From positions 124,001 to 188,000 of the forward strand of contig NZ_JACHLP010000003.1 in NCBI RefSeq assembly GCF_014204525.1: a stretch of DNA of 64,000 bases. The letters are read 5' to 3'. A program made the translations under genes and the position numbers. The DNA is from Roseateles oligotrophus. GTDB taxonomy: Bacteria > Pseudomonadota > Gammaproteobacteria > Burkholderiales > Burkholderiaceae_C. The first letter of the stretch is position 1, and every line of letters starts with the position of its first letter. The notes beneath the pieces were generated by a model. The model was not told where the DNA came from and did no database searches. It worked only from the letters and a program-made list of their open reading frames with translations. Below, in pieces: positions 19,081 to 27,386 of this stretch.

Positions 19081-20970
19081 CTACTTGGCGTCCAGCACTT
19101 CCCAGCGCTCCATCAAGGCCAGCAACTGCTCGTCGATTTCACCGGCACGGGCGGTCACCTCGGCGATGCGGGCCGCCCCCTGGCTGTACAGCTCGCTGCC
19201 ATTCAGCAAGGCATTGAGCTGCGTCTGCTCGGCCTCCAGCGCGGCGATTCTCTGGGGTAGCTCGTCCAGCTCGCGCTGCTCTTTGTAGCTGAGCTTTTTA
19301 GGCTTGGCCACGACCAGGGCGTCGGGTGAGGCCACGGGTGCGGGCGCGGGGGCCGGTGCGCTGGCCACGGCAGCCGGCTCGTTCTTGGCGCGCAGGGCCG
19401 CGGCCCGCTTGCTTTGGATCAGCCAGTCCTGCACCCCGCCTTCGTACTCGCGCCAGCGGCCATCGCCTTCATTGACGATGGTTGAGGTGACGACGTTGTC
19501 CAGGAAGCGTCTGTCATGACTGACCAGGAAGACGGTGCCGTCGTAGTCGGCCAGCAGCTCTTCCAGCAGTTCCAGGGTCTCGATGTCCAGGTCATTGGTG
19601 GGCTCGTCCAGCACCAGCACATTGGCGGGGCGGGCGAACAGACGGGCCAGCAGCAGGCGGTTGCGCTCGCCGCCCGACAGGCTCTTGACCGGCGAGTTGG
19701 CGCGCGCGGGCGAGAACAAAAAGTCGCCCAGATAACTTTTTACATGCTTGCGCTGGTTGCCGATCTCGATCCACTCGCTGCCGGGGCTGATGGTGTCGGC
19801 CAGGGTGGCGTCCAGGTCCAGCACATCGCGCATCTGGTCGAAATAGGCCACATTGATCTTGCTGCCCATCTGCACCTTGCCGGTGTCGGGCGCCAACTGG
19901 CCGAGAATCATTTTCAGCAGCGTCGTCTTGCCGGCGCCGTTGGCTCCGACCAGGCCGACCTTGTCACCGCGCAGAATGGTGGCGCTGAAGTCGCGCACGA
20001 TGGCGCGGCCGCCATAGCTCTTGCTGACCGTATCCAGCTCGGCCACGATCTTGCCGCTGGCGCCACCGGTGTCGATGTCTAACTTGACCTTGCCCTGCAC
20101 ATCGCGGCGCGCCGCGTGCTGCAAGCGCATGGCTTCCAGGCGCTGGATGCGGGCCACGCTGCGGGTGCGGCGAGCCTCGACGCCCTTGCGTATCCAGATT
20201 TCTTCCTGCGCCAGCAGCTTGTCGAAGCGCGCATTGAAGAGCGCCTCGTTCTCCAGCTCATAGGCCTTGGCGGCGGTGAAGGCGGCGAAGTTGCCGGGGT
20301 AGCCGCGCAGCTGGCCACGGTCCAGCTCGACGATGCGGTTGGCCACATTGTCGAGAAAGCTGCGGTCGTGGGTGATCAGCAGCAGCGAACCCTTGAAGCC
20401 GTTGAGCAGCTCCTCCAGCCAGGTGATGGCGTCCAGGTCCAGGTGGTTGGTGGGCTCGTCCAGCAAGAGCACGTCGGGCTGGGCCACCAGGGCGCGGGCC
20501 AGGGCCACGCGCTTCTTCAAGCCGCCCGAGAGCGCGCCGACGATGCGCGAGCCGTCCAGATTCAAACGCTGCAAGGTCTCTTCGACGCGCTGCTCCCAGT
20601 TCCAGGCGCCCAGATGCTCGATGCGCTCGGCCACCCATTCCAGATCGTCCTCCGGGTCGTGGATCTCGTAGCGCTCGCGCAAGGCCTTGGCCTCGGCCAC
20701 GCCCTCGCTGACCACGTCGAAGATCGTCGCCTCGGGCCGCAGCTCGGGTTCCTGCGGCACGTAGACGCTGGTCAGGCCTTGCTGCAGCTGCAAGAGGCCG
20801 TCGTCGAGCTTGTCGATCTGGGCGAGGATTTTCAGCAGCGACGATTTGCCGGTGCCGTTGCGGCCGATCAGGCCGACACGCTCACCCATTTCGAGTGAGA
20901 AGGAGGCGCCATCCAGCAAGGCGACGTGGCCGTAAGCGAGATGGGCGTTGGAGATGGATAGGACTGCCAT
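19081..20970 (-). CDS. uup: ABC-F ATPase Uup
   Basis: Soluble ABC-F protein of 629 residues from the ATG at 20970 (MAVLSISNAHLAYGHVALLD). Two ABC cassettes are complete: Walker A GRNGTGKS and GANGAGKT, signatures LSGG (GALSGGLKKR and SLSGGERNR), and Walker B plus DEPTNHLD/DEPTNDLD. The C-terminal region (about 540-629) is an Ala/Pro linker then a coiled coil, as in Uup, which binds branched DNA and ribosomes. The longer upstream start at 21048 is not supported. ABC-F proteins of this type act in translation or genome stability rather than transport. Confidence 0.93.
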   Translation of the reverse strand: MAVLSISNAHLAYGHVALLDGASFSLEMGERVGLIGRNGTGKSSLLKILAQIDKLDDGLLQLQQGLTSVYVPQEPELRPEATIFDVVSEGVAEAKALRERYEIHDPEDDLEWVAERIEHLGAWNWEQRVEETLQRLNLDGSRIVGALSGGLKKRVALARALVAQPDVLLLDEPTNHLDLDAITWLEELLNGFKGSLLLITHDRSFLDNVANRIVELDRGQLRGYPGNFAAFTAAKAYELENEALFNARFDKLLAQEEIWIRKGVEARRTRSVARIQRLEAMRLQHAARRDVQGKVKLDIDTGGASGKIVAELDTVSKSYGGRAIVRDFSATILRGDKVGLVGANGAGKTTLLKMILGQLAPDTGKVQMGSKINVAYFDQMRDVLDLDATLADTISPGSEWIEIGNQRKHVKSYLGDFLFSPARANSPVKSLSGGERNRLLLARLFARPANVLVLDEPTNDLDIETLELLEELLADYDGTVFLVSHDRRFLDNVVTSTIVNEGDGRWREYEGGVQDWLIQSKRAAALRAKNEPAAVASAPAPAPAPVASPDALVVAKPKKLSYKEQRELDELPQRIAALEAEQTQLNALLNGSELYSQGAARIAEVTARAGEIDEQLLALMERWEVLDAK

Positions 20971-21254
20971 GGCCCGATTGTCGCCGCAGCGGCGAGACGC
21001 GCCGCCAGGCGCCGATTCCAGCCTCACCAGGCACGGACAAATAATCACCCATTCAAGCGGCTTTTGAGGCGCCCGGGCCGACTCCCTTTGACTTAGGGGG
21101 AGGGCGGGTTTTCACGGAAATGCAATCCCGCGTGAAATGACTCCAATGGTTTCGCCGCTCCGATTTCATGCGCTTGCATCGAATGGAACACCGTCCAGCA
21201 AGGGCTTGTCGAGCGAGTGAACCTTCCCCGTCAATCACAAAGGAGAGGAATCCC

Positions 21255-22017: not shown

Positions 22018-22118
22018 CATTGGCGCCCTAATTTCCTGAACCAGCGTGCTGAAGCTGCCAGAATCTGCAGTCTTGGGAGGCTGTCCAGCCACCGTTGCCA
22101 ATGGAAAGCAATAACGAT

Positions 22119-23102
22119 ATGAAACGCAGAACGATGCTGAATGCCGGCGGCCTGGGCCTGCTGGCCGCCACACCCCTGGCCAGCCTGGCGCAAGCCAGGG
22201 CCAAGTCGACGAACACAGCGCCGCTGGATTCCCTGCGCCTGCTGGTGCCGGCCTCGCAGGGTGGCGGCTGGGACCAGACCGCCCGTGCCATGGGCAATGC
22301 CCTGCAGGCCAGCCGGCTGGTCGACAAGGTGGAATATGAATACAAGCCCGGCAAGGGCGGTGTGCCCGGCTTGGCCTATTTCGTCGAGAAGTACGCCCGC
22401 CAGCCCAATACCCTGATGTTGGGCGGCATGGTCATGCTGGGCGCCATCGCCCTCAACCGCGCCCCCATCGACCTCAGCCAGGTCACGCCGGTGGCCCGCC
22501 TGACCTCGGACGCCCTGGTCATCCTGGTGCCCAAGGCCTCCCCGCTGCGCAACCAGGCCGAATTGAACGCGCGCATCCGCAGCGACGCCGCCACCCTCCG
22601 CTTTGGCGGCGGCAGCGCCGGCGGGGTGGACCATATGTTGATGGGCATGATGGGCCGCGCCCTGCAGGTGGACGCCAGCAAGCTGCGTTACCAGCCCTTC
22701 TCGGGCGGCGGCGAATTGGTCGCGGCCCTGCAAAAAGGCGATCTGGACATCGGCATCAGCGGCTACTCCGAGGCCATGGAGGCGATCAATAGCGGCAGCG
22801 TGCGCGCCCTGGCCATCTCCAGCCGGGCCGACACGGCCGGCCTGCGCTCCCTGCGCAATCAGGGCGTGGCCACCGACCTCAGCAATTGGCGCGCCGTCTT
22901 CGCCCCCCCGGGCCTGACGCCGGCCCAGGCCGAACGCATGACCCAGCTGGCCACGGCCTTGAACGGCAGCAGCGCCTGGGCGGCCGAACTGCAGAAGAAC
23001 CGCTGGAACAATGCCTTCATGACGGGCAAGCTGTTCAGCGAGTTCCTGGAGACCGAACAGACCACCGCCCGGGTGGTGCTGCATCTGCTCAAGCTCAGCT
23101 GA
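22119..23102 (+). CDS. Bug family tripartite tricarboxylate transporter substrate-binding protein
   Basis: Periplasmic solute-binding protein of the TctC/Bug family, 327 residues from the ATG at 22119 (MKRRTMLNAGGLGLLAATPL), which gives a clean signal peptide with a twin-Arg start. In-frame alternatives lie at 22101 and 22095. Family segments include LRLLVPASQGGGWDQTARAM, YEYKPGKGGVPGLAYF and GGGSAGGVDHMLMG. No tctA/tctB membrane genes are adjacent, which is common for the many orphan Bug proteins of Burkholderiales. The ligand is unknown. The repeat array starts 50 bases downstream. Confidence 0.88.
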   Translation: MKRRTMLNAGGLGLLAATPLASLAQARAKSTNTAPLDSLRLLVPASQGGGWDQTARAMGNALQASRLVDKVEYEYKPGKGGVPGLAYFVEKYARQPNTLMLGGMVMLGAIALNRAPIDLSQVTPVARLTSDALVILVPKASPLRNQAELNARIRSDAATLRFGGGSAGGVDHMLMGMMGRALQVDASKLRYQPFSGGGELVAALQKGDLDIGISGYSEAMEAINSGSVRALAISSRADTAGLRSLRNQGVATDLSNWRAVFAPPGLTPAQAERMTQLATALNGSSAWAAELQKNRWNNAFMTGKLFSEFLETEQTTARVVLHLLKLS

Positions 23103-23154
23103 GCGAACCTTGAAGCCGGGCGCCGCCAGGGCGCCACGGCTGCTCCATATTCGG

Positions 23155-23241
23155 GCAAGCCAGCGCAGGACCGATGAACAGGGGCTTCTCGGCCCCTCTC
23201 CAAGCGCCATCCCCAAACTTGCCCACAGGCTCTGTGGACAG
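23155..23241. repeat. 87-bp palindrome-bearing repeat, unit 1
   Basis: First of five units in a gene-free region (23103-24584). It begins gcaagccag, contains gatgaacaggggctt, and ends CCCACAGgctCTGTGGaca. It also has a perfect AGGGGC/GCCCCT stem. Similarity extends 14 bases upstream (catattcgg) and, more weakly, about 70 bases downstream. Confidence 0.85.
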
Positions 23242-23403
23242 TGCCCAACACGGCCGCGCGATCAGCGCCCCGATGCGGGCGGCAATCGCCCGAAACTGGG
23301 CGATCAGCAATCCAATCTGCCCTGTTTTTCAGCAGGCCAGAGCCCACAGCTGCGGCCCAGGCAGGTACTCTTGCTGCGCAGCGGCGCTTTGCCTTGATTT
23401 GCA

Positions 23404-23490
23404 GCAAGCCAGGGAATCCGCGATGGATAGAGGCCTTGGCCACATGCTCCCGCAGACATCCCCAGGCTTGCCCACAGACACTGTGGACAT
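23404..23490. repeat. 87-bp palindrome-bearing repeat, unit 2
   Basis: Same length and ends as unit 1, with a CCCACAGacaCTGTGG palindrome. The middle stem here is GGCC-tt-GGCC, a different sequence but the same pairing as in unit 1. Confidence 0.85.
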
Positions 23491-23616
23491 TCAGCCAAAC
23501 CACCGAGCGCGCAATGCGCCCAACACGGGGCGAAATTCGCACAACAGGCGATGGCGAGCAAATCGCTCGCAGCAATGCAGCTGCCGAGTTTTTACGCAAA
23601 TCCAAGCCGGGCCTTT

Positions 23617-23625
23617 TTGTCCACA
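23617..23625 (+). other. DnaA-box-like site TTGTCCACA
   Basis: One mismatch to TTATCCACA, in the spacer between units 2 and 3. Similar one-mismatch sites are TCATCCACA at 23851-23859 and TTACCCACA at 23743-23751 inside unit 3. Binding by DnaA is not shown. Confidence 0.25.
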
Positions 23626-23678
23626 GCCCCAGTCCGAAAGGAATCGACTCCCGGGCGGTCCCCCTGCCCCATCTTCGA

Positions 23679-23765
23679 GCAAGCCAGGGAAATCGCGATG
23701 GACAGAGGCATCGCCCACGCACTCCAAGGCCCATCCCCAAACTTACCCACAGCGACTGTGGACAT
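23679..23765. repeat. 87-bp palindrome-bearing repeat, unit 3
   Basis: Contains CCCACAGcgaCTGTGG. Its left palindrome arm reads TTACCCACA, the closest of the five to a DnaA box. The middle stem is shortened to GGC-atc-GCC. Confidence 0.85.
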
Positions 23766-23987
23766 AAAGACCCAAAAATCGCGCGGCCTGCGCACCATCA
23801 CGGGCGACAGCCGCCCAAAGCCGGGCGTATTGCGCGCAAAGCGGCAGATGTCATCCACAACAGGGCCGCTGGGCAGCCCAGACGCCGACCGAAGCTGCCG
23901 CAAAATAAAGCAGCGATCTGCCGCGCCGAGAACCCGGCCTGGCGAGCCCCGGTTTTCGCGCCCCCAAGCCGCCTGCCCGCATTTGAT

Positions 23988-24074
23988 GCAGGCCAGGGAA
24001 TCGTCGATGAACAGGGGCTTCTGAGCGATTCCCCCACTCGCGTCCCCAAGCTTGCCCACAGCCTCTGTGGACAG
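23988..24074. repeat. 87-bp palindrome-bearing repeat, unit 4
   Basis: Contains gatgaacaggggctt as in unit 1 and CCCACAGcctCTGTGG. The GGGG run can pair with a CCCCC run 18 bases further on. Confidence 0.85.
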
Positions 24075-24310
24075 GCGCCGCAGGATGAGAGGACGATTTC
24101 AATTGAAATCGACGCTTTTGCGCGCACTGCGCACCGACTCGAACGCCGCCCGCAAATCCCGCCGCCAGGCCGCCGTTCAAGCCACCCATCCGCAGGGGAA
24201 TTGCCGCTGAATCGCCCCGTTCTTGCCACAGGCCAGCGCTGCCGCGCCGCGCATTCGCGTCCGAAATTGACGCTTTTCGGCCCCGGCCGAGGCGGCTGCC
24301 GCATATTCGG

Positions 24311-24397
24311 GCAAGGTCTTGACGAGCCCATGAACAGGGGCTTGGGCGCGATTCCATCGCAACACTCCCCAAGCTTGCCCACAGGCGCTGTGGGCAA
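24311..24397. repeat. 87-bp palindrome-bearing repeat, unit 5
   Basis: Most diverged at its left end, but shares the upstream catattcgg with unit 1. It has the longest palindrome, TTGCCCACAGgcgCTGTGGGCAA (10-bp perfect arms). Confidence 0.8.
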
Positions 24398-24584
24398 CGC
24401 CGACCTAGATACGCGCGCCTGCCGCCCCGCCCGGGGCGCGTGCCGCACAAGGTGAATGGTGGGCAAGTGCGACCCGCCGTCAGGAGCCCCCCCATCGCCT
24501 CCCTATACTGGGCCGCCCCGTCCAAGCCGACTGGGCAGACCCCGAGCTTTCAAGCCAAACGATCCCTATCCGCGGAGTCCATTG

Positions 24585-27386
<2,802 letters not shown>

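Follow-up and report, generated by a model that had tools for sequence, protein, structure and literature searches.

Five non-coding units, all on the same strand, are flanked by a TctC gene upstream and an M16 peptidase gene downstream. We regard them, with a confidence only somewhat better than even, as tandem copies of a DARS-type, DnaA-binding element that belongs to a proteobacterial family and would act on the nucleotide cycle of DnaA. Sequence comparison establishes the architecture, the conservation and the distribution of these elements, and from these we infer a role in the reactivation of ADP-DnaA.

The array and its units

The window, i. e. the whole 64-kb stretch of DNA that was analysed (G000:C3:124001-188000 of a 5.34-Mb draft genome in 30 contigs), contains the array at positions 23141-24398 (Table 1). 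The five repeat units proposed in the initial annotation were recovered by a repeat finder, all in register and with start-to-start steps of 249, 275, 309 and 323. Their starts had been placed correctly at 23155, 23404, 23679, 23988 and 24311; the proposed length of 87 bp was too short, since the conserved sequence starts about 14 bp sooner and the unit comprises about 102 bp. Moreover, the 87 bp had been counted from a gcaag motif to the end of a palindrome: CCCACAGNNNCTGTGG ends at 83 bp from gcaag, and 87 bp takes in four more bases. The arms of this palindrome are indeed fixed, and the bases that follow them differ in unit 5 (TGTGGGC for TGTGGAC). In the 5.34-Mb genome, exact CCCACAGNNNCTGTGG is confined to the array (five forward places and one reverse reading of the fifth), and the reversed-pattern control gave 1 and 0.

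Table 1. Features of the array and its surroundings (window positions; identities refer to Paucibacter sp. KBW04)
Feature	Position	Strand	Remarks
ATPase gene with two ABC domains	19081..21048	-	ABC-F type by domain content (Pfam)
TctC gene (tripartite tricarboxylate transporter receptor), upstream of the array	22095..23102	+	Pfam PF03401
Array unit 1	23141..23242	+	94/102 identical
Trio of unit 1 (box III, 3 bp, box II, 5 bp, inverted box I; DARS-core-like)	23207..23241	+	geometry scan
Array unit 2	23390..23491	+	79/102 identical
Array unit 3	23665..23766	+	best boxes of the five (6 mismatches/27); 90/102 identical
Array unit 4	23974..24075	+	95/102 identical
Array unit 5	24297..24398	+	palindrome runs on as TGTGGGC; 95/102 identical
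Equivalent trios, units 2-5	23456-23490, 23731-23765, 24040-24074, 24363-24397
Extra DnaA-like box TTGTCCACA, spacer 2	23617..23625	+	also at the matching place in KBW04
GATTTCAATTGAAATCGACGCTTTTGCGCGCAC, spacer 4	24095-24127		identical in KBW04, most of the spacer not; its first 16 bp form a perfect palindrome
M16 peptidase gene, downstream of the array	24585..27386	+	Pfam PF00675 and PF05193; start 24585 assumed from ATG

Read from 5' to 3', unit 1 carries the half-palindrome TGCTCCATATTCGGGCA, box III (CCATCCCCA), box II (TTGCCCACA) and inverted box I (TGTGGACAG). The block CGATGRAYAGGGGC is largely kept across the units, and box II reads TTGCCCACA in four of the five and TTACCCACA in one. 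The initial annotation had described arms and spacer sites as one mismatch away from a DnaA box: This is true for TTACCCACA in unit 3 and for the spacer sites TTGTCCACA and TCATCCACA, but not for the other four units, as TTGCCCACA has two mismatches. No counterpart of TCATCCACA within one mismatch was found in KBW04.

Each unit carries a trio of DnaA-like boxes with DARS-core geometry

In all five units, boxes III and II have the same orientation and lie 12 bp apart, start to start, and box I is inverted and located 5 bp past box II. We scanned for this pattern (box III, 3 bp, box II, 5 bp, inverted box I), counting the mismatches to three ideal boxes out of 27. The top five places in the 64-kb window are exactly the five array units, with 6, 7, 7, 8 and 8 mismatches, as compared to 10-12 for the best places in ten first-order Markov windows. 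The geometry is kept in all ten array units of the window and KBW04.

For comparison, E. coli stretches that we take to contain DARS1, DARS2 and datA were picked by gene neighbours; the datA stretch was placed beside glyVXY. The best trio has 3 mismatches in the DARS1 region, 5 in the DARS2 region and 8 in the datA region, as compared to 12 in the dnaA region of the host and 10 in that of the related genome G008. Thus, three boxes at fixed spacing, with box I opposite to II and III, are found in the five units just as in the DARS1 and DARS2 regions, and like DARS the array is intergenic, as it lies between tctC and the M16 gene and has no conserved frame. DARS1, in the intergenic region between bioD and uvrB, has boxes III-II-I with identical spacing and orientation, and upstream of mutH the best trio of the DARS2 region, which was taken as the published core, also has the core geometry of the array. 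According to excerpts of a review (PMC5742627), DARS1 and DARS2 lie at 0.81 and 2.97 Mb in E. coli, which fits the stretches used; their boxes share one common spacing with box I reversed, the head-to-head pair of boxes I and II is a prominent DARS feature, and DARS sites favour ADP-DnaA.

A second line of evidence comes from the model R2, a sequence-only model with rough E-values that was trained on 35 copies, including seven array units. Since array units were among the training sequences, the array matches by construction. Over 21 kb comprising the three E. coli regions and the two dnaA regions, R2 gave one match: the core of DARS1, in register, with an E-value of 5e-5 and an alignment that covers the core region only (model positions 48-101). 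There was no match at datA or DARS2 and none in the two dnaA regions. The geometry fits DARS cores and R2 matches DARS1 but not datA, so that among the candidates of the initial annotation the protein-binding array was the right class, with binding being predicted, rather than the datA-like site. The structured RNA found no support. The lead to DnaA was well founded, as each unit is a three-box cluster of the DnaA type. An origin of replication was rejected, because the host dnaA gene sits on another contig than the array and a trio is absent from the dnaA region (12 mismatches).

The distance between boxes II and I was also surveyed in the order. Exact pairs of TTATCCACA and TGTGGA with a gap of 0-14 were collected in 399 genomes of the order, and among the matches listed the gap was 5 in 117 of 150 (counted by eye; the survey lists palindromes on both strands). 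The host has no exact TTATCCACA-N5-TGTGGA pair, and its single match has a gap of 14. The host DnaA protein keeps residues R399, H434, T435 and H439, which have known roles in DnaA, as well as D269, R285 and L290. The roles of the latter three are described in the review, as excerpted (PMC5742627).

The array is conserved in Paucibacter sp. KBW04

Paucibacter sp. KBW04 has the same five units at the same place, next to an M16 protein that is 93% identical to that of the window. Aligned identities are 453/510 (89%) for the units and 445/747 (60%) for the spacers, and still the spacers contain only 2 gap columns as compared to 85 in the 185-base stretch after the array. The unit steps shift by one base between the two arrays (309/308 and 323/324). 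Spacer length is under more constraint than spacer sequence. In a tree, window units 1, 2, 4 and 5 pair with their KBW04 counterparts (unit 1, 96/99; unit 5, 100/100; unit 4, 90/90; unit 2, 91/79), and we can conclude that the array is older than the split of the two species.

The comparison also bears out the claim that the repeat is non-coding, as no frame is kept between the species and the steps between units differ by one base. In the window, an open frame of up to 407 codons runs across the array; in KBW04 none exceeds 156 codons, and all six frames contain 4-13 stops each. A protein-coding repeat was therefore rejected.

The constraint on the spacers bears on titration, according to which the array would be a DnaA sink that delays initiation by binding, without nucleotide exchange. 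We consider this reading unlikely, yet it is the strongest competitor of the DARS reading: Five clustered trios and additional spacer boxes provide many sites in 1.26 kb, the copies of the family are scattered without positional preference (see below), and chromosomal titration is supported by a 2025 study on E. coli, as far as excerpted (PMC12371093). A sink, however, needs boxes only and neither the fixed trio geometry with its distances of 3 bp and 5 bp nor a conserved module of about 65 bp upstream of the boxes. Nor would it need spacers whose lengths are kept to 1 bp but whose sequence has drifted to 60% identity, and boxes weaker than the family consensus would be odd for it. On the other hand, the weak array boxes, the loss of the IHF site and the lack of a fixed distance of the family copies from dnaA leave room for titration.

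The units belong to a family that is widespread in the sampled Proteobacteria

A covariance model built from the ten array units (R1) matched 34 of 148 genomes, including the host. R2 was used to search genomes of Proteobacteria, among them the host and the training genomes. Matches were obtained in 372 of the 399 genomes and 160 of the 165 genera of the order (E 0.01; about four would be expected by chance if the rough E-values hold), in 243 of 323 genomes of the class and in 130 of 249 genomes of the phylum (both at E 0.001), with 73 rows of the latter survey marked as outside the class. As the numbers of copies per genome in these three surveys are lower bounds (10-16 candidates were scored each), copy numbers are quoted from the genus and from single-contig genomes: All 18 genomes of the genus have 2-12 matches each (E 0.1), some of them weak and partial, and 39 of 40 single-contig genomes have 1-13. 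In the host, ten copies are clear, with E-values of 1.4e-7 or better, and an eleventh match has E 0.083. Five of the clear copies form the array, two form a pair on contig C4, and single copies are located on C1, C5 and C12. The five-unit array is present in two of the 18 genomes of the genus, and in the 40 single-contig genomes no more than three copies are clustered on one strand within 1 kb.

According to the initial annotation, hundreds of scattered copies would have indicated a dispersed repeat family. We looked for these and found the ten clear copies and a very weak one. The array stretch had no match in plasmid or phage collections, and a mobile or high-copy dispersed repeat was rejected on both grounds. 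No particular distance from dnaA is preferred by the copies, as judged from 97 loci in 39 single-contig genomes (KS test versus uniform, p 0.30). Thus, the family does not have the conserved distance from oriC that has been reported for DARS of E. coli strains and that is perhaps not a defining property elsewhere.

Outside the class, the element adjoins a UvrC-like ORF at six of the nine loci with ORFs read (L243, L244, L245, L246, L252 and L253; Pfam for L244 only), and at four of these six a short-chain dehydrogenase is encoded on the other side; E. coli DARS1 adjoins uvrB. A 114-bp variant with an 11-bp insertion (L158:2652-2765, equal to G000:C5:419651-419764, and L153:3000-3113) is near-identical, flanks included, in two genera, which suggests recent horizontal transfer. 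The copy beside glmU (L225:2415-3515, G000:C12) lies directly after an ORF that resembles a REP-associated tyrosine transposase (by eye).

The family alignment also allows a judgement on the proposal of a tandem family of structured small RNAs, which we hold to be extremely improbable. The units can form hairpins with 18 consensus pairs, and in the 107 distinct family rows there are 67 cells with two-sided changes, a number reached by 21 of 500 shuffles, and a covariation score reached by 6 of 500. However, 323 of 500 shuffles reached the number of family pairs with two-sided change (5 of 15), pairing in the 5' helix of the family amounts to only 76%, and palindromic protein sites would give the same weak signal. 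In the array itself, a second stem had been thought to be kept by changed bases, and this did not stand up: none of the 18 predicted pairs has a two-sided change in the ten units. Rfam gave no match to the array units at the gathering threshold and nothing credible at a relaxed threshold. A structured RNA family was rejected, given the lack of an Rfam match and of two-sided changes in the array units and a family signal that is at most weak.

Anatomy of the family: IHF consensus and palindrome

The consensus of 97 distinct non-array copies is ATCAAG(G/C)(A/G)(C/T)TT(A/G) ... TTRTCCACA-N3-TTATCCACA-GNNNC-TGTGGATA. These copies have a 17-bp palindrome of the form TGC(C)-N9(AT-rich)-(G)GCA, followed by an IHF consensus, box III, 3 bp, box II, G-N3-C and inverted box I, and in box II (TTATCCACA) six of the nine positions are invariant. 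The boxes of the family consensus are near-perfect matches to the DnaA consensus, whereas those of the array units have 6-8 mismatches out of 27.

An IHF consensus with at most one mismatch is present in 43 of 92 full-length copies as compared to about 5% in shuffles, and 36 of these 43 matches start at one of two adjacent positions. The window units are 2-4 mismatches away from the consensus, i. e. they have no IHF site of the DARS2 type, and in KBW04 a single unit of the five matches with one mismatch, though off position. A second IHF-consensus-like site was seen by eye about 15-35 bp upstream of the palindrome in several copies (TAAGTACTTGATT, TAAACCGTTGATT, TAAGTCATTGATT and TATCAATGGCTTA; loci L152, L159, L244 and L248).

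This pairing of DnaA boxes with an IHF consensus in the non-array members is reminiscent of datA, a non-coding DnaA-box cluster with an IHF site, and one could imagine a datA-like site at which IHF assists the promotion of DnaA-ATP hydrolysis. We give this reading little credence: The datA region has no III-II-I trio (five of its 8 mismatches fall in box I), its boxes are arranged differently, R2 does not match it, and the window units do not have the IHF consensus. Moreover, the IHF site of the family flanks the boxes, whereas that of datA lies between them, as stated in the excerpted review (PMC5742627). A datA-type arrangement of boxes around an IHF site was rejected on the geometry scan and the R2 result.

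The palindrome was judged on full-length copies, as local alignment trims poor ends. Among these copies, 66 of 92 begin with TGC, and 62 of the 66 have GCA at positions 15-17. The Fis consensus GNNYANNNNNTRNNC is found at the palindrome with 0-1 mismatch in 26 of the 66, and the best Fis match anywhere is exact in 24 of the 92 full-length copies versus 8% in shuffles; at this place, the array units have 2-3 mismatches. We rate the apparent Fis resemblance of the family palindrome as weak to moderate. A short HTH_8 (Fis-type) ORF follows a Dus-type ORF (Dus by eye), and we take it to encode Fis because of the HTH_8 match and the gene order, which is dusB-fis in E. coli.

It is also conceivable, but quite unlikely, that another sequence-specific protein has taken over a DnaA-type site and that the change from TTATCC to TTGCCC reflects a changed specificity. 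All ten array units of the two species have C at position 4 of box II, as compared to three of the 97 other copies, the TGC..GCA ends of the palindrome in 62 of 92 full-length copies exceed what the E. coli Fis consensus demands, and the block CGATGRAYAGGGGC is largely conserved in the array as well. However, the trio geometry has been retained in every unit, and no candidate protein is known.

Relation to known systems and possible function

If the units are DARS-type elements, DnaA would bind to the boxes of the trio, and the head-to-head pair at boxes I and II would favour ADP-DnaA and the release of ADP, as in E. coli DARS. Apo-DnaA could then reload ATP, and the number and state of the elements would help to set the timing of initiation. 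The five array copies may be low-affinity, IHF-independent (DARS1-like) sites that act together, or they may mainly hold DnaA: the weak boxes and the absence of an IHF site suggest either cooperative, IHF-independent action or a mere DnaA reservoir.

The E. coli elements resemble the array and its relatives in part. For DARS1, as for the array, there is no requirement for IHF or Fis, according to the excerpted review (PMC5742627). DARS1 is, however, a single copy at a fixed chromosomal position in E. coli, it has better boxes than the array, and only its core aligns to R2. DARS2 is regulated by IHF and Fis sites, with the IHF site between the core and the Fis site, as described in excerpts of two papers (PMC4245941, PMC4585315), and the non-array members have the same order of core, IHF consensus and palindrome. 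In contrast to the family elements of about 100 bp, DARS2 comprises 455 bp, it is not matched by R2, and the palindrome of the family is only partly Fis-like. Some observations speak against the DARS reading: the genomes of the genus carry 2-12 matches, far above the two DARS of E. coli, the array boxes are degenerate, there is no preference for a distance from dnaA, unlike in the case of E. coli DARS, and R2 misses DARS2.

A more distant parallel is the enhancer of chromosome II on chromosome I of Vibrio cholerae, which is presumably the site called crtS. It is a non-origin enhancer site that was likened to DARS by its authors; in contrast to the array, it binds RctB, a single DnaA box was reported in it, with three mismatches, and DnaA does not seem to be important for the site (PMC3937223, in excerpt).

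In the literature surveyed, as far as excerpted, recycling of the DnaA nucleotide by DARS is described for E. coli. Conservation of the DARS2 core was reported specifically for those gamma-proteobacteria that are relatives of E. coli (PMC4245941, in excerpt), and conservation of its spacing for 'E. coli-proximal' beta or gamma species (PMC5742627, in excerpt). As the latter work extends conservation to beta species, some of the beta relatives may already be known to its authors. Our literature search turned up no description of the family or of a multi-copy DARS array. Given the related elements in many of the sampled Proteobacteria, this replication-timing device may be wider and more multi-copy than the work on E. 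coli implies. A sequence-defined family, matched in 372 of 399 genomes of the order, would make the generality of regulated DnaA reactivation directly testable, as well as the dependence of initiation on copy number and the reason for which five copies at fixed spacing have been retained in one lineage. Should the proposed function turn out to be wrong, we would still be dealing with a deeply conserved DnaA-box element for which our search gave no description.

Possible origin of the array

A tree of 26 copies places the array units together with three dispersed copies each of the genomes G008 and G015 and with a single copy from each of G006 and G044. The metG, xseA, glmU and acyltransferase copies fall outside this group, and the support is weak (82/95); many forks of this tree are weak, 4 of 22 inner branches are starred, and xseA and glmU were named by eye. 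Both G008 and G015 have a single element between the ABC ATPase gene and tctC, and the proteins of the window and G008 are 67% (TctC) and 91% (ATPase) identical. The single copy of G015 belongs to the array group and is located upstream of the same M16 gene, on the same strand; the window array is on the opposite side of tctC from it. The best reading is that an element already resident there was expanded locally and shifted to the other side of tctC, and judged by its boxes, the array is a box-degenerate expansion of the wider family.

It is tempting to speculate that DARS-type DnaA-recycling sites are an ancient and largely unrecognised replication control of Proteobacteria, often with several sites per chromosome and with IHF-bearing and IHF-less subtypes, and that in one Paucibacter lineage a single IHF-less copy at the abcF-tctC-M16 locus grew into a phased five-unit station for cooperative DnaA recharging (or timing). 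We regard this broader scenario as possible rather than probable.

Fixed spacing is also found in the pair of family members on contig C4 of the host (G000:C4:124726-125102, L223:4727-5103), which adjoins a gene for methionyl-tRNA synthetase (Pfam). This pair was compared in 11 genomes of the genus (L223, L227, L221, L216, L219, L202, L220, L215, L204, L205 and L217; some matches are a few bases short, and three further genomes with the pair were left out). The start-to-start distance is 274-277 in nine of them and 280 and 286 in the other two, and the mean pairwise identity is 0.49 for the spacer versus 0.68 and 0.76 for the units. Array units 2 and 3 are 275 bp apart as well, like the pair beside metG.
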